This document shows, piece by piece, positions 24,029-33,715 of a DNA stretch of 64,000 nucleotides. Numbering within the stretch: the first letter of the stretch is position 1; each line of letters starts with the position of its first letter. The DNA is taken from the NCBI RefSeq assembly GCF_030680395.1, contig NZ_JAUXVR010000006.1, positions 62,001-126,000 on the forward strand, written 5' to 3'. Source of the DNA: Methylobacter sp. Its GTDB lineage: Bacteria > Pseudomonadota > Gammaproteobacteria > Methylococcales > Methylomonadaceae. Under the pieces are notes generated by a model. It had not been told where the DNA came from, did no database searches, and saw only the letters and a program-made list of their open reading frames with translations. A program made the position numbers and the translations under genes.

Positions 24029-24370
24029 TCAGATAACAATTAAATCCTTAATCTTCATTTCTGAACCCTGAATGACTTTAACAAAAGGACTGCCGCAATA
24101 AACACAAGTATCGTATAACGTTTTCATTTCTGATTGCTGTTGGCATTGCTGACAAATCCCGAGCCCATTAAGTTCGGAAATAATCAACTCGGCATTTTCC
24201 GCCAACGAATCTTTCATGACGACATCAAAACAGAAACGTAATGCGTCCGGCTCAACATTGGAAAACCTGCCTATTTCCAAGGTTACTTTGGTTACCCTAC
24301 TGAATCGTTGGCTCAGTGCATTTTTTTCGAGAATTTCCCGCACACTCTCAAGTAGCGATAATTCATGCAT
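24029..24370 (-). CDS. hypA: Hydrogenase nickel-insertion protein HypA
   Basis: This 113-residue metallochaperone delivers Ni to the [NiFe] large subunit together with HypB. The N-terminal MHE (Ni ligand His2) is intact. The zinc ribbon has two CxxC pairs (CQQC and CVYC) near residues 73 and 90. It is the last gene of the hydrogenase block, 255 bp after the Rieske-GGDEF-EAL gene and in the same direction. hypB, C, D, E and F are not in the window and would have to be elsewhere for maturation. Confidence 0.9.
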   Translation of the reverse strand: MHELSLLESVREILEKNALSQRFSRVTKVTLEIGRFSNVEPDALRFCFDVVMKDSLAENAELIISELNGLGICQQCQQQSEMKTLYDTCVYCGSPFVKVIQGSEMKIKDLIVI

Positions 24371-24625: not shown

Positions 24626-27250
24626 TCATCCAACAACGCCATGATCAATCCAGCGCCTCTGAAATTCATCTGCAGGCACCGGCGGCGAGAGATAATATCC
24701 CTGAATCTCATCGCAACCGTAAGACTGTAATAGCGTCAACTGGGATTCGGTTTCTACGCCTTCGGCGACAACTTTCATATTCAAAACTTGCCCCAAGGAT
24801 ACGATGGTCTTGATAAATGCCGCCTCGTTCGAGGCGGGGTCATCGGTATAAGCCTGAACGAACGATTTGTCTATTTTAAGCGTCTGGATGGGTAATGTTT
24901 GCAAATAGGATAAAGATGAATAGCCGGTACCGAAGTCGTCCATCGCGACGTGGATACCGCGCGACCGGATTTGATGCAATCGTTCGGTCGCTTTTACGAT
25001 GTCGAGCATGACCAGACCTTCGGTCACTTCCAACTCAATCCATTCGGGCTTGGTGCCGGTTTCGGTCAGAATAAGGTCGAGAACAACAATAAAATCATCT
25101 GCCAGAAGTTGCAGCGGCGAGAGATTAATGGCGACTCTAAAATCTGCCAGTTGATTGACCCAGGCCTTGGCTTGCAAACACGCTGTCTTCAGTATCCATT
25201 TTCCTAACGGAATGATTAAAGCCGTTTCCTCGGCGATAGAGATGAAGCGGTCCGGAGGTATAATTCCGAAACCGGGGCGCTTCCAGCGGATCAGCGCTTC
25301 GGCACCGGTTATCCGGCTTAAATGGCTGTCGGCTTTGGGCTGGTAATAAAGCTGGAACTCTTCCTGTTCTATGGCCAATCGCAATGCGTTTTCCAGTGAT
25401 AGTCTCTGATGTGCCGCCTCGTTCATGCCAGCTTCATAGTACTGAAACAGGCCTCGGCCTTTTGCTTTGGAGGCATACATGGCAGTATCCGCATGCTTGG
25501 TCAGAGTATAGAAATCATTGCCGTCATCGGGAAAGATGGCGATACCGATGCTGACGCCAACGAAAACCGTGTGGTCTTTAATTTGCACCGGTTTTGTCAT
25601 GACATCAATCAGTTTTCGGGCAAGCTCGGTGGCATCGGTAATGCCGGTTAAACCGGGCAGGATGATGGTAAACTCGTCTCCGCCCATTCGGGCAACGGTG
25701 TCCGTTTTTCGTAAGCAGTTTTGAATACGCGTTGCGATGCTTTGCAATAAACAGTCGCCAGCCCAATGGCCGAGCGTATCGTTGACATTCTTGAAATGAT
25801 CCAGATCAAGAAAAAACAAGGCGAGACGGGTATTATTACGTTCTGCCAGACAGATTTCGTGCTCAAACCGATCCTTGAACAGAGACCGGTTGGGAAGACT
25901 GGTGAGTACATCGTAGTACGCCAGCTGTTTGAGTTCCCGTTCCGTTTGTTTCTGGTGGCTGATGTCCGTGGAGATCGCCACATAATGAGTTAACCGGCCC
26001 CGTTTGTCAGTGACGGCGTTGATGCTAAGCAACATCGGGCAGAATTCGCCATTTTTTCGGCGATCCCATATTTCCCCTTTCCAGCTCCCCTCATTTAACA
26101 GCGATTGCCATAGGTGTTTGTAAAACAGCTTATCGTGCAGTTTTGATTTCAATATCCGGGGGTTTCGGCCAAGCACTTCGGAACGCTCATAGCCGGTAAT
26201 TGCGCAGAAGGCTGCATTAACCTCCATGATGATGCCCTGCGGATCGGTGATAAAAATTGCCTCGGTACTATTTTCAAAAACTTTGGTACTCAGTTGCAGC
26301 TGAGTTTCCCTGTTTTTCAATTCGGTGACATTCAAGGCCGTCACAACTGCCCCTTCCAGTTTTCCCTGCTCCGAATGCAGCAAACTGCTCTTCAACCAAT
26401 AGATGGATTTTATGTTGTCCCTGTTTTTGCCCAAGAGCTCATGCTCCCCGGTATAATGTCCGTTAAGCCGGATGGTTTCCAGCAGCACGGATCGGATAGG
26501 CCAGGGCAAACCCGGCAATTGCGCCGCAAGATACTGTTGTTCGAGAGCCGTCAGCAAGTCGTCGATGCAGGTTCCCAGTAATTCAGCATCGGTAAGCTCA
26601 AGTTCGCGCTCCACCGCCGTATTCAGCTGGAGAATTCGGCCTTCCGTATCAATGACGATCAGGAGATCGTCAATAGTATCCATAACGCGGTCAACAAAAC
26701 GGCTAAAGGTCTGCTGCTGAAGCACCTTTTCTTTGAGCTTTATCTTTTGCTGTTCCGATTCGCTGAGCATGACATCCATACTTTGGGTGATGACGCGAAT
26801 TTTCTTTTCCTGTTTTTGATTGGCCAGTCGTAGCTTATCGATCTCATCCCGCAGTTGAAGCACTGTTTCGGAACCCTCGCTGCCGGAAATAATTTCAGGC
26901 CGATTCCCGGCTGCTCCAAACAGGTTGGTTTCATTGAGGGATACCAAAAATTGACCGTCGCGTTCTTTGACGTGGAATTCGGAACCTTTTAAATCGATGC
27001 GTCGACTGTGCGCCGGACAAACAAGGATATTTTCATTGAGCAGCGGACAATGCGTCAGATCGCAACCCTCATGAGGACAGAGAGCCGGGACAGCCTGAAA
27101 TTCACCCTGAATGTTAAAAATCAGAATATCGATAGCATGATGCTCGCCGGGTAAGCGTAAGCGGCCTTTCCAGCGCGGCGGAGTAGCCAAGTCGAAAAAT
27201 GTTACCGATTCGACGATGGCATCGCGAAGATTTTGACTTTGACCGATCAT
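24626..27250 (-). CDS. Rieske-PAS-PAS-GGDEF-EAL c-di-GMP enzyme of the hydrogenase operon
   Basis: This 874-residue cytosolic protein starts with a Rieske [2Fe-2S] domain (about 15-105). Its ligands C58-x-H60 and C78-x2-H81 are spaced by 17 residues, as in Rieske proteins. A coiled coil follows (about 128-180), then PAS 1 (about 187-310), PAS 2 (about 322-433), a GGDEF domain with intact GGDEF and an RKTD inhibitory I-site, and an EAL domain with AEALIRW, MDDFGTGYSSLSYL, LKIDKSFV and AEGVET. No membrane segment is seen. Both c-di-GMP synthesis and breakdown look possible; which dominates is unknown. Its start overlaps the maturation-protease stop (ATGA), coupling it to the hydrogenase subunits. 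The likely role, as inference, is to take electrons from the hydrogenase into the Rieske cluster and set c-di-GMP accordingly. Confidence 0.9.
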   Translation of the reverse strand: MIGQSQNLRDAIVESVTFFDLATPPRWKGRLRLPGEHHAIDILIFNIQGEFQAVPALCPHEGCDLTHCPLLNENILVCPAHSRRIDLKGSEFHVKERDGQFLVSLNETNLFGAAGNRPEIISGSEGSETVLQLRDEIDKLRLANQKQEKKIRVITQSMDVMLSESEQQKIKLKEKVLQQQTFSRFVDRVMDTIDDLLIVIDTEGRILQLNTAVERELELTDAELLGTCIDDLLTALEQQYLAAQLPGLPWPIRSVLLETIRLNGHYTGEHELLGKNRDNIKSIYWLKSSLLHSEQGKLEGAVVTALNVTELKNRETQLQLSTKVFENSTEAIFITDPQGIIMEVNAAFCAITGYERSEVLGRNPRILKSKLHDKLFYKHLWQSLLNEGSWKGEIWDRRKNGEFCPMLLSINAVTDKRGRLTHYVAISTDISHQKQTERELKQLAYYDVLTSLPNRSLFKDRFEHEICLAERNNTRLALFFLDLDHFKNVNDTLGHWAGDCLLQSIATRIQNCLRKTDTVARMGGDEFTIILPGLTGITDATELARKLIDVMTKPVQIKDHTVFVGVSIGIAIFPDDGNDFYTLTKHADTAMYASKAKGRGLFQYYEAGMNEAAHQRLSLENALRLAIEQEEFQLYYQPKADSHLSRITGAEALIRWKRPGFGIIPPDRFISIAEETALIIPLGKWILKTACLQAKAWVNQLADFRVAINLSPLQLLADDFIVVLDLILTETGTKPEWIELEVTEGLVMLDIVKATERLHQIRSRGIHVAMDDFGTGYSSLSYLQTLPIQTLKIDKSFVQAYTDDPASNEAAFIKTIVSLGQVLNMKVVAEGVETESQLTLLQSYGCDEIQGYYLSPPVPADEFQRRWIDHGVVG

Positions 27251-27699
27251 TCCGACAAAAGACCTCGTATCAATTGGACGGTTTTGGCTACAGCCTGTTC
27301 GGTTTTATCGGACAGGCCGGGAGAAAAGAGTTTGAGGGCGGCTATTTCGACACCCACGATCAGAATATCCGGTAGTGGTTCCCTGATGACTTTAAGTGCC
27401 TCCAGCAAATACGGAATTCCCAAGCCGTGGCCGGTGAGCTGCTCAGGCCTGTCGGCCAAGTCTTCCGGCCTTAGCAGGCAGACCTCGCCGACATTCCCGA
27501 AATTGGCCAAGGCATCGACCAAAATCGCCTGACTGCAATCCTCAAGAAATCGGAGTGCATTGAGTCCGGCGATGCCCGCATTGAACACTTCGACATCTTC
27601 CGGCCACGTCAACCGGCGAAGCTCTGCGTAAATGCGGGTCCCGAAGCCGTCATCCCCGTGCAGTTCATTACCAAAACAAACGATGTGGCGTGTACCCAT
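27247..27699 (-). CDS. [NiFe] hydrogenase maturation protease (peptidase M52)
   Basis: This 150-residue protein belongs to the HyaD/HybD/HoxW/HupD family, which clips the C-terminal peptide of the hydrogenase large subunit once nickel is in place. It starts MGTRHIVCFGNELHGDDGFG, with the family's GN-x-(L)-x-GDDGFG and acidic Ni-sensing residues. The gene is 3 bp after the large subunit and overlaps the next gene by 4 bp. Its presence agrees with the cleavable 12-residue tail on the large subunit. Confidence 0.93.
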   Translation of the reverse strand: MGTRHIVCFGNELHGDDGFGTRIYAELRRLTWPEDVEVFNAGIAGLNALRFLEDCSQAILVDALANFGNVGEVCLLRPEDLADRPEQLTGHGLGIPYLLEALKVIREPLPDILIVGVEIAALKLFSPGLSDKTEQAVAKTVQLIRGLLSE

Positions 27700-27702
27700 A
27701 GC

Positions 27703-29241
27703 TTAGGGCCATACGGTGATGCGTTTGCCGGTGTCGAGTAGATGCACGGTACAAACCAGACAGGGATCATGGGAGCGGATAATATGGCCGATTTCCACCG
27801 GGTCGTCCGGATCCTCGACAGTCAAGCCAATCAAACTGCTTTCCCAATGCCCGTGTCGGCCTTCGCTGTCTTTGGGCGATGCATTCCATGCGGTTGGCGT
27901 AACAACTTGATAGCGACTGATAACACCGTCGGTGATTTGCACCCAATGACCCAATGCGCCACGCGCCGCCGTTACCAGCCCAAAGCCTTCTCCATCGGGG
28001 ATTTCTTTCTCGTCGGGAGAGATCATATGCGGCTCGTTAGGCTGTGCGGCCAGTTCGTGCAGCGTTTCCCGCATTTTATGCAATAACCGGGCGGTGCGAT
28101 GTAAGCGCGCGAACTGGCGCAGCCAGGCATTGCCCCCCTCCGCCTGATATAACGAGCGGATCAGCGGCTCGCCGTCGATTAGCGCATCTGCCAGCGGGCC
28201 GGTTTGCACGACCTTGTTCTGATAGCGGGGCGCTTTGCACCAAGTATAGCGATCTGAATGGGGTTGGTAATCAGGGATGGTTTGTCCCTGAAACGGATGG
28301 CGTCCGCCCTGATATGGCTGGAACCATGAATAGCGTACATGCTCGGTGATTTCGGCTTGTTCGAAAGGCTCGATGTCGCCAGTATCGCCATTAAGGAAAC
28401 CAGCCCTGAACAAATGCTTGCGATGCGGAGGAAAAGTCCCGGCATCGTCCGGGTCGTCATAAGCGCCATAGCTGATCATATGCGGAGTGCCGAATCCTAC
28501 GTGTTGCAGGCCTATGTCGCGGCTCATCAGCGTAAACAGTCCGATGGCGCTGTCGGCATGAGCATCCTTCGCCGTCAGCCAGGTAAAGAATTCGTCGGCG
28601 GATTGCATCGCCAGCCAGGCATCCAGATCTGTTCCGATAATGGTCTGTTCAAACCATCGGGTCAACTTGTTGAGGATGGACAAGCTGTCGATAATATGAC
28701 GACTATTCGCAGGAGTAGTCACTCCGCCCGGCAACATATAAGACGAGTGCGGCCACTGGCCGCCAAACAGGGCGATAATTTCGACGACATGGCGTGAATG
28801 TTCAAGAGCGCCGCGATGAACCCAGCCCTTAAACGGCAGGAAAGCAGTCCGCGCTTTTTCATAAAACGGCCGATGAATATATTTGGAATGGCAAAAATCG
28901 GCAGTGAAAAACATAAAAGATTGCCGCAGATCGCTTTGCACCGTCTCGGCCATCAAACACAGATTGCGGATGCGAATGGCCGTTGGCGGCACGGGGATTT
29001 GCCCGATATGTTCCAGTGCAAGCACCGCGGCATTTAATTGCGCGGTGCCGCAAATCCCGCAGATACGAGGCGTGATCACCAGCGAGTCCTTGGGCTTACG
29101 GCTCACGAGGATTTGTTCGAACCCCCTATAGAGGGAGCCGATACAACGGGCATCGACGATTTTGTTGTCTTCCAGTTCCAATTGGAAATCGAGATCGCCC
29201 TCGACCCGGTTAAGGTCGATTTGAATGGTTCTTCTGGTCAT
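27703..29241 (-). CDS. [NiFe] hydrogenase large subunit, group-2-like
   Basis: This 512-residue protein carries the Ni-Fe active site. The N-terminal pair is C61 and C64 in PRICGICGTAQL, and the C-terminal pair C494 and C497 in HDPCLVCTVH. Twelve residues (LLDTGKRITVWP) follow His500, forming the peptide removed on maturation. The His usually found after the first CxxC motif in group 1 enzymes is Gln68 here, which I recall also from group 2 sensory and uptake enzymes. There is no export signal. It starts 2 bp after the small-subunit stop and is followed by its protease after 3 bp. H2 oxidation in the cytosol is inferred. Confidence 0.93.
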   Translation of the reverse strand: MTRRTIQIDLNRVEGDLDFQLELEDNKIVDARCIGSLYRGFEQILVSRKPKDSLVITPRICGICGTAQLNAAVLALEHIGQIPVPPTAIRIRNLCLMAETVQSDLRQSFMFFTADFCHSKYIHRPFYEKARTAFLPFKGWVHRGALEHSRHVVEIIALFGGQWPHSSYMLPGGVTTPANSRHIIDSLSILNKLTRWFEQTIIGTDLDAWLAMQSADEFFTWLTAKDAHADSAIGLFTLMSRDIGLQHVGFGTPHMISYGAYDDPDDAGTFPPHRKHLFRAGFLNGDTGDIEPFEQAEITEHVRYSWFQPYQGGRHPFQGQTIPDYQPHSDRYTWCKAPRYQNKVVQTGPLADALIDGEPLIRSLYQAEGGNAWLRQFARLHRTARLLHKMRETLHELAAQPNEPHMISPDEKEIPDGEGFGLVTAARGALGHWVQITDGVISRYQVVTPTAWNASPKDSEGRHGHWESSLIGLTVEDPDDPVEIGHIIRSHDPCLVCTVHLLDTGKRITVWP

Positions 29242-29243
29242 GG

Positions 29244-30185
29244 TTAAGGATCCATCGTCTTGTTCAGCACCCGGTCGGGAGCCGCATCGTGGGCCAGACT
29301 TTTATAAGCCATGTAATTGGCCCGTTCTACGCCCAGAGGCAGGTTTACCGGAATGGTGCCGATTTTTTCGGTGAGGAACAGATCCTGATCCAGAGGAAAG
29401 TCGGGGGACGTGCAGCCGAAACACGGCACCCCTGCCCTGGTCTTGCTGCTGCGGCCATTCCAGAGCTCGGTATTGCAAATGGCCATCGTGACCGGCCCTT
29501 GGCAACCCAGGTTAAAGAACATGCAGGCCTTATCGCCGAACTCGGTGTCTTCCACGTCGTACTCATGATATTCGTTGCGGGTGCAGCCTTGATGCACGGT
29601 GCTATTAAAAAAGGCCTTGGGACGGTTAAGATGATCGAGTTCCAGTGGAAGCCCTGAAGCCAGCATGGCCAAGGTTTTGGTCATCGCATTGGGGTGAGCG
29701 GGGCAACCCGAGATATTGATGACCGGCCGGCCTTTGCGAGATCGCCATTCGATCGGTAATAATCCGCCCGGAGATTGTTTATCGAACTGCAAGCCGAGAC
29801 AGTCGGTCGGATTAGGCGGCGCGGCATGGACACCGCCGTATGATGCACAAGTACCCAGAGCGACTACATATCCGGCTTTTTCGACCAGCTCACTGACCAG
29901 ACTCATTTTGGAACGCCCCCGATACGGATCGTACATGCCTGAGCCATTGGGCCCGGTAATGATGCTGCCTTCAATGCATAAAATGTCGAGGGCTTGTTGA
30001 TCCGCGATGATCGCCTCGATCAACGTATCCAGCTTGCTCGTCGGTTCTATGGAAAGGGACGGTTGCCAGAGCATCTCGATGCTGTATTCATCAATGAGTT
30101 CTTCCAGTGATGGACTGTCCGCGCATAGAATCGACATGGTGTCGCCGCCGCAGGAACCGGTTTGCAGCCAAAGTAGTGTCGTCAT
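29244..30185 (-). CDS. [NiFe] hydrogenase small subunit, cytosolic group-2 type
   Basis: This 313-residue Fe-S subunit starts MTTLLWLQTGSCGGDTMSIL. I chose the ATG at 30185 because GAGG lies five bases upstream and the protein then begins exactly at the family N-terminus. There is no twin-arginine signal, so the enzyme stays in the cytosol as in group 2 hydrogenases. The proximal-cluster region has C12-GGD in place of CxxC, matching the CSGNTMS form of cyanobacterial HupS and HupU/HoxB. Distal-cluster ligands lie in HQGCTRNEY and CMFFNLGCQG, and medial-cluster ligands in C-NTELW and PCFGCTSPDF. It is the first gene of the operon. Confidence 0.92.
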   Translation of the reverse strand: MTTLLWLQTGSCGGDTMSILCADSPSLEELIDEYSIEMLWQPSLSIEPTSKLDTLIEAIIADQQALDILCIEGSIITGPNGSGMYDPYRGRSKMSLVSELVEKAGYVVALGTCASYGGVHAAPPNPTDCLGLQFDKQSPGGLLPIEWRSRKGRPVINISGCPAHPNAMTKTLAMLASGLPLELDHLNRPKAFFNSTVHQGCTRNEYHEYDVEDTEFGDKACMFFNLGCQGPVTMAICNTELWNGRSSKTRAGVPCFGCTSPDFPLDQDLFLTEKIGTIPVNLPLGVERANYMAYKSLAHDAAPDRVLNKTMDP

Positions 30186-30665
30186 AAAAACCTCAGTGAT
30201 GTATCGTAGCTCATGAGGATGTTGTTGAATAAATGCGTATTCTCTTAAATGAAAGCTATCACTTAACCGGTGCATGTTGCTACCGGTGAAAGCATTAAAA
30301 TAATAAATAATTCAAAAACATACACATAAACTATTGGAATCAATTTGCGAGAAAAGCATATTACTGATTGATTCCCCGATAAATCAAACAGTCAAAAGCA
30401 GCCACCCTGATGTTACCACCCTGTCCGGGCGTAAAAGCAGGACGCTATGTTACCCCCTATCTCTTCAGTTGTCGTCAAATTCGCTTGTTGAGTCAGAGCG
30501 GTTCCATAACACTATTTATAATATTATTAGAGATGAGGTAGTGCTATCGGGCGATGGATGAGCGCTGAATAGGCCCCCATAAGTGCGAGCCAGTCATGCT
30601 GAAACGCAAGAGCAAAGCTGAGCTACCGGAAAAAGTAGAGAAACGTGGCTTGTTAAAAAAAGCAT

Positions 30666-30990: not shown

Positions 30991-31078
30991 ATAAAAAAAG
31001 CCCTACATTTACATGTAAGGCTTTTATTTACTTGGCTCCCCCGGACGGGCTCGAACCGCCGACCTAATGATTAACAGT
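30991..31078 (-). repeat. Right copy of the tRNA-Asn flank repeat
   Basis: Covers the tRNA-Asn terminator hairpin and the 3' half of the intact tRNA-Asn through the anticodon. It is a direct repeat of 23841-23914. Confidence 0.7.
30996..31025 (-). terminator. Terminator of the tRNA-Arg/tRNA-Asn transcript
   Basis: A 13 bp stem with one mismatch and a GTAA loop (minus strand) is followed by a run of seven T. It lies 8 bp past the CCA end of tRNA-Asn. Confidence 0.85.
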
Positions 31079-31108
31079 CATCCGCTCTACCGACTGAGCT
31101 ACAGGGGA
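31033..31108 (-). tRNA. tRNA-Asn (GTT)
   Basis: This 76 nt cloverleaf has encoded CCA. The acceptor pairs TCCCCTG with CGGGGGA. The D arm is GCTCAGTCGGTAGAGC, the anticodon loop CTGTTAA has anticodon GTT, and the T loop is GTTCGAGCC. It lies 17 bp after tRNA-Arg. Confidence 0.95.
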
Positions 31109-31125: not shown

Positions 31126-31202
31126 TGGTGCGCCTGGAGAGATTCGAACTCCCGACCGCTCGGTTCGTAGCCGAGTACTCTATCCAGCTGAGCTACAGGC
31201 GC
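31126..31202 (-). tRNA. tRNA-Arg (ACG)
   Basis: This 77 nt cloverleaf has encoded CCA. The acceptor pairs GCGCCTG with CAGGCGC, the D arm is AGCTCAGCTGGATAGAGT, the anticodon loop CTACGAA has anticodon ACG, and the T loop is GTTCGAATC. It is the first of the two-tRNA transcript. Confidence 0.95.
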
Positions 31203-31727: not shown

Positions 31728-33074
31728 ATGAGTCTGCGTTACCAAATCAACATACGAATTTTGATCTCTTCCCTATGTGCCCTGATGCTGGGCGGATCGA
31801 TAGCCATCTGGCAGGCACGCGATGCGGTAAATAAAGAAGTCGAGTCATCCATCAATCTGGCTGTACAGTTAATAACATTCGGTTTTTCACAAGCCTCACA
31901 AACTCCGTTTAATGAAACCGATTGGTTGCCGAAGTTTAATTCACTGAATCAAACCCGACATTTAAGTATTCAACTCAAAGAACCCTCAGGGCAAATAATT
32001 AGTTTTGCCCACAAAAATCAACAAACCAATAATGACGAAAAACCGCCGCAATGGTTTATTAATCGGGTTGCAGTTCACTATCCCAAAGTTGAACATCAAA
32101 TCACCAGCTTCAACGGCGAACAAATCACCCTGATTATTCAGGCCAACCCACTAGATGAAATCACTGAAGTCTGGCAAGAGAGCATTGCCTTTTTTAGCTC
32201 GCTTTTTATGTTGACACTATTTACATTTTTGGCTGTCAATCTGGCTTTTAACAAAGCGCTTAAATCCATTGCCGTCATTGTTAACGCGCTAAAAGTCATT
32301 GAAACCGGACGGTATCAGCAAAAGCTACCCAACTTTTCCATTCAGGAATATGACAATATCGCCAAAGCCATCAACCATATGACCGGTGAACTCGATAAAA
32401 GCCAACAGGAAAACCGGGCACTAACCCAGCACACCCTGGAAATACAGGAAGACGAACGACAACGACTCTCGCAGGAATTGCATGATGAACTGGGGCAATC
32501 GCTGACCGCAATTAAAGTCATGGCAGTAACTGCCGGGCGTTCCCAAGCGGGAGCTGTGGGAACGAGGGCGGATATTAAACAAGCGACCGACTCCATTATT
32601 AATGTCTGTGACCACTTAATGACCGTAGTGCGTTCCATGATGCATCAACTGCACCCCTTGGTATTAACCGAACTCGGACTGAAAGCAACCATGGAGGACC
32701 TGCTAAACCACTGGTCGATCAGAAACCCGGAGTTAAAGCTCACCATCACCTGCCCTGACGAAGTCGACTATCTGGAGCAAAAAATCACCATTCAAATATT
32801 TAGAGTCGTGCAGGAATGCTTAACCAATATTGTTCGTCATGCACAAGCGAAACAAGCCGCCATCAGCCTGGAAATCGAGCATCAGGCCAAAACAGGAACA
32901 GCGTTACGCCTACAGGTAACCGACGACGGACAAGGTTGCGCTGTCGACAAAATCAAAACCGGTTTTGGATTATTGGGTATGAGAGAACGAATCAACAGTT
33001 TGGGCGGCGAACTCATTATACAGACCCGGCCGCACCAGGGCATGAGCATCATTGCGACTATTCCACTGCCATGA
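31728..33074 (+). CDS. Sensor histidine kinase, HisKA_3 type with LapD/MoxY-like N-terminus
   Basis: This 448-residue protein has a first membrane segment (about 9-27) and a periplasmic domain (about 30-145) whose opening (GGSIAIWQARDAVNKEVESS) resembles the LapD/MoxY N-terminal family. A second membrane segment follows (about 150-172), then a HAMP linker, the phospho-acceptor RQRLSQELHDELGQSLTAIK and a HATPase domain ending GFGLLGMRERINSLGGEL. Its stop overlaps the start of the LuxR-type regulator (ATGA). MoxY is a kinase tied to methanol-dehydrogenase control in methylotrophs; whether this one has that role cannot be told from the window. Confidence 0.88.
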   Translation: MSLRYQINIRILISSLCALMLGGSIAIWQARDAVNKEVESSINLAVQLITFGFSQASQTPFNETDWLPKFNSLNQTRHLSIQLKEPSGQIISFAHKNQQTNNDEKPPQWFINRVAVHYPKVEHQITSFNGEQITLIIQANPLDEITEVWQESIAFFSSLFMLTLFTFLAVNLAFNKALKSIAVIVNALKVIETGRYQQKLPNFSIQEYDNIAKAINHMTGELDKSQQENRALTQHTLEIQEDERQRLSQELHDELGQSLTAIKVMAVTAGRSQAGAVGTRADIKQATDSIINVCDHLMTVVRSMMHQLHPLVLTELGLKATMEDLLNHWSIRNPELKLTITCPDEVDYLEQKITIQIFRVVQECLTNIVRHAQAKQAAISLEIEHQAKTGTALRLQVTDDGQGCAVDKIKTGFGLLGMRERINSLGGELIIQTRPHQGMSIIATIPLP

Positions 33075-33715
33075 AAGACAAGATAAAAGTCATTCTGGTT
33101 GACGACCATGCCGTAGTGCGCGCCGGTTTCCGGATGCTGCTATCGACCGAAGCCGATATTGACGTCATCGCCGAAGCCGAACGGGGCGAAGCGGCCTGCC
33201 AGCTGTACCTGGAACAACAACCGGATGTGATGGTGCTGGACTTATCCATGCCCGGCATCGGCGGACTGGAAAGCATACGCCGCATTTGCAACCGCGACAG
33301 TAACGCCAAGATACTGGTATTTAGCGTTCATGATGAAATGGTTTATGTCGATAGAGCCATGAATGCCGGCGCAAAAGGCTATATCACCAAAAACAGCGCT
33401 CCCGGCATTCTGGTAACAGCGATACAGAAAATAGCCGGGGGTGAGATTTATATCGAACAGGGCTTGATGAAAAACATGCCCCTGCAAAATAGCGAGACCG
33501 ACTACCAAACCATTGTCGATACCCTGTCCCCCAGAGAGTTTGACGTATTCCTGCTGCTGGCAAAAGGTTTAACCGCCCATAAAATCGCCGACGAACTTTG
33601 TCTGGGCTATAAAACCGTCGCCAACTACGGCACGCAAATAAGAAGCAAACTTAAAGTCTCAACTGTCGCCGAGCTGGCACATATTGCGATAGTTCTGGGA
33701 ATAATGAAGAATTGA
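33071..33715 (+). CDS. LuxR/NarL-family response regulator
   Basis: This 214-residue protein has a receiver domain (acidic pair in LVDDHAVVRAG, phospho-acceptor Asp in VLDLSMPGIGG, Lys in AKGYITKNS). A C-terminal LuxR helix-turn-helix follows (LSPREFDVFLLLAKGLTAHK ... KTVANYGTQIRSKL). The ATG at 33071 lies in the kinase stop codon; a longer upstream extension in this frame is the kinase gene read out of phase and is not used. It is the partner of the preceding kinase. Confidence 0.93.
   Translation: MKDKIKVILVDDHAVVRAGFRMLLSTEADIDVIAEAERGEAACQLYLEQQPDVMVLDLSMPGIGGLESIRRICNRDSNAKILVFSVHDEMVYVDRAMNAGAKGYITKNSAPGILVTAIQKIAGGEIYIEQGLMKNMPLQNSETDYQTIVDTLSPREFDVFLLLAKGLTAHKIADELCLGYKTVANYGTQIRSKLKVSTVAELAHIAIVLGIMKN

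Follow-up and report, generated by a model that had tools for sequence, protein, structure and literature searches.

A candidate H2-to-c-di-GMP sensor in Methylobacter: a group 2c-like [NiFe] hydrogenase encoded with a Rieske-PAS-GGDEF-EAL protein

The window analysed here, 64,000 nucleotides of Methylobacter sp. DNA (assembly GCF_030680395.1, contig NZ_JAUXVR010000006.1, positions 62,001–126,000), carries on its reverse strand an operon for a [NiFe] hydrogenase, its maturation protease and a partner protein in which a Rieske domain, a coiled coil and two PAS domains precede GGDEF and EAL domains. Judged from the sequence, a path from H2 to cyclic di-GMP (c-di-GMP) is likely. It is probable that the hydrogenase is a cytosolic H2 or redox sensor of the group 2c kind, which would signal via PAS to c-di-GMP, with the Rieske domain acting as an electron relay or gate. 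The Rieske domain is a plausible electron entry point, although this role cannot hold across the whole family, since close relatives lack the domain. The module common to the relatives is the coiled-coil-PAS region, not the Rieske domain, and either GGDEF-EAL or a histidine kinase follows it as the output.

The order is small subunit, large subunit, protease, partner; 2 bp separate the first gene from the second and 3 bp the second from the third, and the partner gene overlaps the protease gene by 4 bp. This packing had been described in an earlier note, which was made from the sequence alone, and is confirmed by the open reading frames (ORFs) and by Pfam. The small subunit start given there also holds, as position 30185, an ATG preceded by GAGG, is the likeliest. 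Pfam assigns the small subunit to Oxidored_q6 and NiFe_hyd_SSU_C, the large subunit to NiFeSe_Hases and the protease to HycI. The genes and the domains of the partner, in amino acids (aa), are as follows.

29244–30185, reverse strand: [NiFe] hydrogenase small subunit gene, 313 aa; the ORF itself spans 29244–30275
27703–29241, reverse strand: [NiFe] hydrogenase large subunit gene, 512 aa
27247–27699, reverse strand: hydrogenase maturation protease of the HycI family, 150 aa
24626–27250, reverse strand: Rieske-coiled coil-PAS1-PAS2-GGDEF-EAL partner gene, 874 aa
26921–27250, reverse strand: Rieske head of the partner, aa 1–110, with ligands C58, H60, C78 and H81
26675–26878, reverse strand: long single helix in the structure model, aa 125–192, taken as a coiled coil
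26291–26674, reverse strand: PAS1, aa 193–320, which matches the PAS in histidine kinases encoded next to hydrogenases of the group 2b type
25931–26290, reverse strand: PAS2, aa 321–440, by Pfam
25454–25921, reverse strand: GGDEF domain, aa 444–599, with GGDEF at 523–527 and the I-site at R514/D517
24680–25390, reverse strand: EAL domain, aa 621–857, with E651, N709, E741, D771, D772, K792, E830 and Q850 present
24029–24370, reverse strand: hypA nickel-insertion gene, 255 bp downstream of the partner gene

The association of hydrogenase and partner was examined in 23 genomes of the genus, where their co-occurrence is a test of linkage because the two profile searches are independent. One and the same set of 10 genomes has matches to both the hydrogenase and the Rieske-coil-PAS1 profile, 464–486 bp apart each time, and random sets of 10 would coincide among 23 genomes with a chance of 1 in 1,144,066. 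Chance neighbours are ruled out by this result. Some of the absences may be gaps, since 9 of the 23 genomes are less than 90% complete. The earlier note had considered that Rieske-GGDEF-EAL homologues might generally be unlinked to hydrogenases; all 10 partner matches in the genus adjoin one. Across the order, the large subunit has a match at E 1e-30 in 46 of 201 genomes (51 match rows), from which 37 stretches were fetched. The 18 closest loci (L033–L050) all encode small subunit, large subunit, protease and Rieske-coil-PAS1-PAS2-GGDEF-EAL protein in the same order. The next 12 (L051–L061 and L068; 57–64% identity) have the large subunit, the protease and a PAS1-PAS2-GGDEF-EAL gene, with no Rieske domain on the partner; L068 ends at a contig edge and its small subunit is not visible. 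As the order loci were found via the hydrogenase, they show what follows it, not the occurrence of the partner elsewhere, and the 18 linked loci were for the same reason not counted in the linkage test. In one Methylobacter metagenome-assembled genome (MAG), the partner is split into two overlapping frames (L033:4307-6921, also seen as L070:10855-13469), by a frameshift or an assembly error.

The partner has the residues expected of a c-di-GMP enzyme. Its Pfam scores are 30.7 bits for Rieske (cut-off 20.3), 172 bits for GGDEF and 231 bits for EAL. As the earlier note had stated, the I-site, GGDEF and EAL residues read as intact, at 15 of 15 positions examined, and the same 15 are all kept in 41 of 46 GGDEF-EAL proteins; of the five exceptions, one is truncated at a contig edge. 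The NCBIfam models closest to the partner are phosphodiesterases, all under cut-off. Two relatives, L046 and L047, have SGDEF for GGDEF (the first Gly is lost) and keep the EAL residues examined, which suggests that their output would be that of a phosphodiesterase. In Sedimenticola hydrogenitrophicus (L087:7984-10620), the EAL catalytic residues are lost and GGDEF is kept.

The region linking the hydrogenase to these output domains is proposed to be PAS1, which we take, on profile matches, as homologous to the PAS that reads 2b-type H2 sensors. Here, a 25-row Rieske-coil-PAS1 profile was run on 369 genomes of the class, with no more than six candidates scored in each genome; 26 of the same genomes matched the large-subunit profile. 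The 13 best Rieske-coil-PAS1 matches all fall within those 26, and 11 of the 13 lie within 10 kb of the hydrogenase. Among the scored matches, only that of the window begins in the Rieske part; the others start at position 93 or later. Twenty stretches were fetched from the class. Of these, L194 belongs to the sensor clade and has GGDEF-EAL, and L195 and L196 are of the Huc type; the large subunits of the other 17 all end at DPCMVCTVH, the group 2b form, and 14 of these loci have a same-strand PAS histidine kinase within 9 kb (448–490 aa; one frame of 619). These kinases are presumably HupT/HoxJ. In the 2b-type locus L199, the profile match is 11 kb away on the opposite strand, and in L197 and L198 the fetched stretches contain no match to the Rieske-coil-PAS1 profile. 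Fold matches of PAS1 span haem (FixL), FAD (NifL, MmoS) and LOV domains alike and so do not single out a cofactor.

The hydrogenase pairs sensor-type gas-channel residues with an Asp replacing one proximal-cluster Cys. The small subunit sequence has no N-terminal twin-arginine translocation (Tat) signal. Its proximal-cluster motif reads CGGD, with Asp in place of the fourth Cys of the usual CxxC, and the distal-cluster H-x2-C-x-R is intact. The CxxD form is found in 31 of 31 loci of the window's closest group, clade A (some genomes counted twice). Other sensor-clade small subunits (n=62) have Asp in 38 and Glu in 14, and 10 are unmatched by the pattern; by eye, nine of these read CGGD or CGGE and the tenth (L069) is a misplaced group 1 enzyme. 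The same position is Cys in 22 of 22 2b-type and Asn in five of five Huc-type small subunits. The large subunit contains the motifs RICGICGTAQ and DPCLVCTVH, followed by a C-terminal extension of 12 aa; this extension is 0 aa in 23 of 23 2b-type and 16 aa in five of five Huc-type rows. It also has the Ile63/Phe111 pair and Gln68, as H2 sensors do. The pair is assumed by us to narrow the gas channel of the regulatory hydrogenase (RH). For H2 sensors, a narrow gas channel and a Gln replacing a conserved His have been described (PMC5665086; papers are cited here by PMC number, for the portions of their text available), and position 68 was equated with that Gln site by motif. Ile63 occurs in every group 2 row compared (n=111), with Val in both group 1 rows. 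Phe111 is present in 16 of 16 clade A, 23 of 23 2b-type and 42 of 54 other sensor-clade rows, and Leu replaces it in all five Huc-type and both group 1 rows. Gln68 is found in 13/16, 23/23 and 1/54 of the same three groups, respectively.

A large-subunit tree of 93 rows, built by a quick method from fetched sequences only, assigns the window to a clade of 65 rows (SH-aLRT 100) that is separate from the Huc-type (five rows) and the 2b-type (14 rows); the deep branching order is unsure, because long branches meet at the base. The sister group (L131–L142 and L062) comprises hydrogenases of sulfate reducers, Myxococcota, Planctomycetota and others, with Phe in two and Met in 11 at position 111. 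A coil-PAS partner was not found in 12 of its 13 loci, several of which end at a contig edge.

The relatives compared were the best 80 of at least 508 from a scan of named genomes, and the family tally, with duplicates removed by hand, comprises 82 loci of the sensor clade, the window not included; 77 of them match coil-PAS1. In clade A (21 loci), all partners have a fused Rieske domain, and in 20 GGDEF-EAL is in the same frame. The other 61 loci are more varied. Partners without a Rieske domain end in GGDEF-EAL in 23 and in a histidine kinase in 15; partners with one end in GGDEF-EAL in two, in a histidine kinase in nine and in an output that was not typed in one (L113). In two further loci (L085, L088), the Rieske domain is encoded by its own gene, located between those for protease and sensor, and nine loci were not typed: six end with the contig (L084, L112, L116, L121, L124, L127), frames are broken in L098 and L145, and the ninth is L123. 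The stand-alone gene in L085 (3819-4157; SAR324) encodes a 112-aa Rieske protein with intact ligands and lies between the protease and a PAS-histidine kinase. In nine loci (L095, L101, L103, L105, L110, L120, L127, L130, L143; Thiorhodococcus, Azonexaceae and others), protease and PAS sensor form one fused protein; wherever the sensor was typed it is a histidine kinase, and some of these carry receiver and Hpt domains. On the tree, where output and Rieske state were scored for 59 and 60 of the 93 rows, output changes at least three times and Rieske state at least six times. As the early-branching pair L125/L129 has a Rieske domain, an old domain that was lost several times is favoured; this holds for a quick tree in which L129 is a long branch.

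The head of the partner is a predicted Rieske domain by its CxH-x(n)-CxxH ligands and by its modelled fold, and would be expected to bind a cluster. The four ligands, correctly identified as intact in the earlier note, are invariant in a 21-row alignment, which leaves out L107 and L088, where ligands are lost; overall, 25 of 27 loci listed with a Rieske domain retain them. In the two exceptions the domain is apparently decaying: the separate Rieske gene of L088 (3648-4007; Sedimenticola) has one His changed to Tyr, and L107 (11971-14058) has lost CxxH, the second ligand motif. The best solved sequence matches of the head are toluene-4-monooxygenase ferredoxins (E 1.9e-6), and the top fold matches of its model are Rieske ferredoxins, with a probability of 1.00 and a TM of about 0.5, none at E ≤0.001. 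Comparison of its profile with the Rieske of HucE gave a probability of 77%. Distances among the Rieske heads track those among the large subunits, with r 0.90 over 21 loci and 0.80 over a thinned set of 14, values reached by 0 of 5000 permutations; this speaks for the sensor reading, as expected of parts that travel together, but the Mantel test leaves shared species history in place. When used alone on the 369 class genomes, the Rieske profile matches 233 of them (listed to E 3.1e-6, with no more than 12 candidates scored in each genome); of the matches listed, the window's is the sole one in an open frame longer than 600 aa.

The operon resembles several known systems and is identical to none. 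Group 2c of the HydDB scheme has been described as diguanylate cyclase-linked and putative, with an undetermined role (PMC5037454). The earlier note's guess of group 2c fits, in that a Thiomargarita enzyme was called 2c with M. tundripaludum HupSL as its best match (PMC4853749). From the consensus L2 motif for 2c, SFDxCLVCTVH (PMC4853749), the window's SHDPCLVCTVH differs once, by His for Phe, and the Thiomargarita enzyme has the same change (PMC4853749). As in group 2c, a group 2 enzyme adjoins a GGDEF/EAL protein, here with the 4-bp overlap; the difference is the Rieske head, which is not mentioned in the available portions of PMC5037454 and PMC4853749. Because the hydrogenase is of the kind filed as 2c, the link from H2 to c-di-GMP is already proposed in print, and what is added here is a Rieske-headed partner, a PAS in common with 2b kinases and an exchange of outputs. 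If all clade members are 2c, the label "diguanylate cyclase-linked" is too narrow, since the clade also holds histidine-kinase-linked and protease-kinase-fused members. A survey of [NiFe] hydrogenase neighbourhoods includes an EAL/GGDEF/PAS cluster and a NifU/Rieske cluster, and the available text does not mention a fusion of the two (PMC12727194). In the open-licence PMC literature searched, as far as its text was available, no description of a Rieske-headed hydrogenase partner was found.

With group 2b, the window shares the Ile/Phe gas-channel pair, Gln68 (most of clade A) and the matching partner PAS, but 2b large subunits end at CTVH, 2b small subunits keep CxxC and the 2b output is a kinase. 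The six 2b-type loci run of 23 (L065, L067, L146–L149) contain no match to the Rieske profile. The 2b pairing of a regulatory hydrogenase with a PAS histidine kinase is, we assume, that of RH/HoxJ and HupUV/HupT. A plain RH was rejected because of the C-terminal extension and the GGDEF-EAL output. With Huc (group 2a) of Mycobacterium, which provides the nearest solved structures (7uus, 7uur), the window shares a C-terminal extension and a Rieske-type partner gene, but Huc-type enzymes have CxxN and Leu at 111, and HucE consists of NifU with a C-terminal Rieske. The window's partner has no NifU domain (Pfam), and its Rieske is N-terminal to the coil-PAS. HucE-type ORFs adjoin two of the five Huc-type loci (L063, L196). 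A plain Huc was rejected on the tree branch, CGGD instead of CxxN, and the absence of NifU. HucE has its Rieske at the C-terminus and is needed for H2 consumption, the authors leaving a maturation role open (PMC6883350).

As a mechanism, the hydrogenase would bind and slowly oxidise H2, and the coiled-coil-PAS1 of the partner would read the redox or conformational state of the small-subunit clusters, by analogy to group 2b, where a histidine kinase reads the regulatory hydrogenase through its PAS. As output, the GGDEF-EAL tandem would turn over c-di-GMP. The Rieske [2Fe-2S], joined to the coil, would most likely take or buffer electrons leaving the hydrogenase, and may thereby set a threshold, direct electrons to PAS1 or let the switch report an oxidised cytoplasm. 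Here, we infer complex formation, cluster content, electron flow, response to H2 and the direction of the c-di-GMP change. A broader proposal, put forward tentatively, is that hydrogenase, protease, optional Rieske and coil-PAS form a portable H2-input cassette, in which the Rieske cluster would be a redox gate passing H2 electrons into a PAS switch, and which could be plugged into c-di-GMP enzymes or phosphorelays.

Several observations weigh against an H2 sensor with a Rieske relay. Many close relatives have no Rieske domain and it is degenerate in L088 and L107, so it is not essential for coupling in the family. Slow catalytic uptake is conceivable, since the large subunit, unlike that of 2b, retains an extension (12 aa) and has its own protease. 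Phe111 is not universal, with 11 Met and one Tyr among the 54 other sensor-clade rows. The proximal Asp is shared with the Ralstonia actinobacterial-type hydrogenase (5aa5), which we take to be a group 1h uptake enzyme, not a sensor, and to be without such a partner. No PAS1 residue proves a cofactor. Over all 46 profile rows from the class, 17 are within 10 kb of a hydrogenase, so the weak tail of matches is probably made up of ordinary PAS domains. At the base of the clade, the Acidobacteriota MAG locus L123 has no coil-PAS match on a contig that ends 2.9 kb behind the protease; it encodes hydrogenase and protease (129-2999), with a short small subunit that reads CNGE. Finally, dN/dS against M. 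tundripaludum, a single pair, is highest in the Rieske domain (0.27, compared with 0.06 for GGDEF and the large subunit), although this value too is far below 1.

Three other explanations were considered. The hydrogenase could signal to coil-PAS1 by direct contact, with the Rieske as an independent redox/O2 sensor or a structural cap that modulates output and carries no hydrogenase electrons. The high dN/dS and lost ligands agree with this, as do the 38 of 82 loci (23 GGDEF-EAL, 15 histidine kinase) in which the hydrogenase, coil-PAS1 and an output occur together without a Rieske. It is nevertheless rather unlikely, as nearly all Rieske-bearing loci keep their ligands, L085 has an intact Rieske as a separate operon gene, as a soluble carrier would be, and H2 consumption requires HucE, the Rieske-type Huc partner (PMC6883350). 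Of what the earlier note had claimed, the pairing of a group 2 hydrogenase of sensory type with a c-di-GMP enzyme and the linked Rieske head are supported; the same 38 loci do not support the Rieske as a general electron entry.

Alternatively, the enzyme could be a genuine uptake hydrogenase whose Rieske feeds respiration, as proposed for HucE, the GGDEF-EAL protein being a regulator that happens to carry a docking domain. It has a C-terminal extension and its own protease, as catalytic enzymes have, and its nearest solved relatives are Huc, accompanied by HucE with a C-terminal Rieske (PMC6883350). However, it branches separately from the Huc-type rows, its partner has no NifU, the partners in 70 among the 82 loci were assigned to GGDEF-EAL or histidine kinase (12 are untyped), and Phe111 and Gln68 are of the sensor type; we therefore regard uptake as improbable. 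Least probable is an inherited operon with a silent sensor, expressed too weakly to act or driven by another ligand at PAS2. This would suit the 13 of 23 genus genomes without a match (some incomplete) and the partner split in one relative (L033/L070), but dN/dS is well below 1 for every part compared, and all 15 output residues are kept in most GGDEF-EAL proteins. The sensor with a Rieske relay or gate is thus the reading that we retain.

How sensory hydrogenases pass on their signal is an open question, and the cytoplasmic electron acceptor of RH was described as yet unknown (PMC5665086). The present family offers matched sets with and without Rieske, two outputs and one PAS module, so electron relay and conformational coupling are separable within it. 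If the proposal is correct, a second-messenger enzyme would be controlled directly by H2 electrons, H2 from nitrogenase or sediments would steer methane-oxidising bacteria between the attached and motile states, and H2 biosensors would gain a ready-made part in the input module.

The genome with the window is 4.36 Mb and its nearest named relatives are Methylobacter; the large subunit is 96% identical to that of M. tundripaludum SV96. The hypA gene probably serves hydrogenase maturation; neither it nor the CGGD of the small subunit appeared in the earlier note. The same genome has a HoxFUYH-like hydrogenase cluster (L200:7417-12519, contig C13; family matches under NCBIfam cut-offs), a possible H2 source or target of regulation. 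It also contains HypD and a full-length NifH-family gene (the nif search covered NifH only), and nitrogenase may supply H2 in this host. Rfam, at gathering score, found no c-di-GMP riboswitch in the window and matched only two tRNAs, which lie upstream of the operon on the reverse strand (31036–31108 and 31129–31202). Beyond them, a divergent two-component pair on the forward strand (31728–33715) encodes a histidine kinase with a LapD/MoxY-type N-terminal domain and a LuxR-type response regulator.

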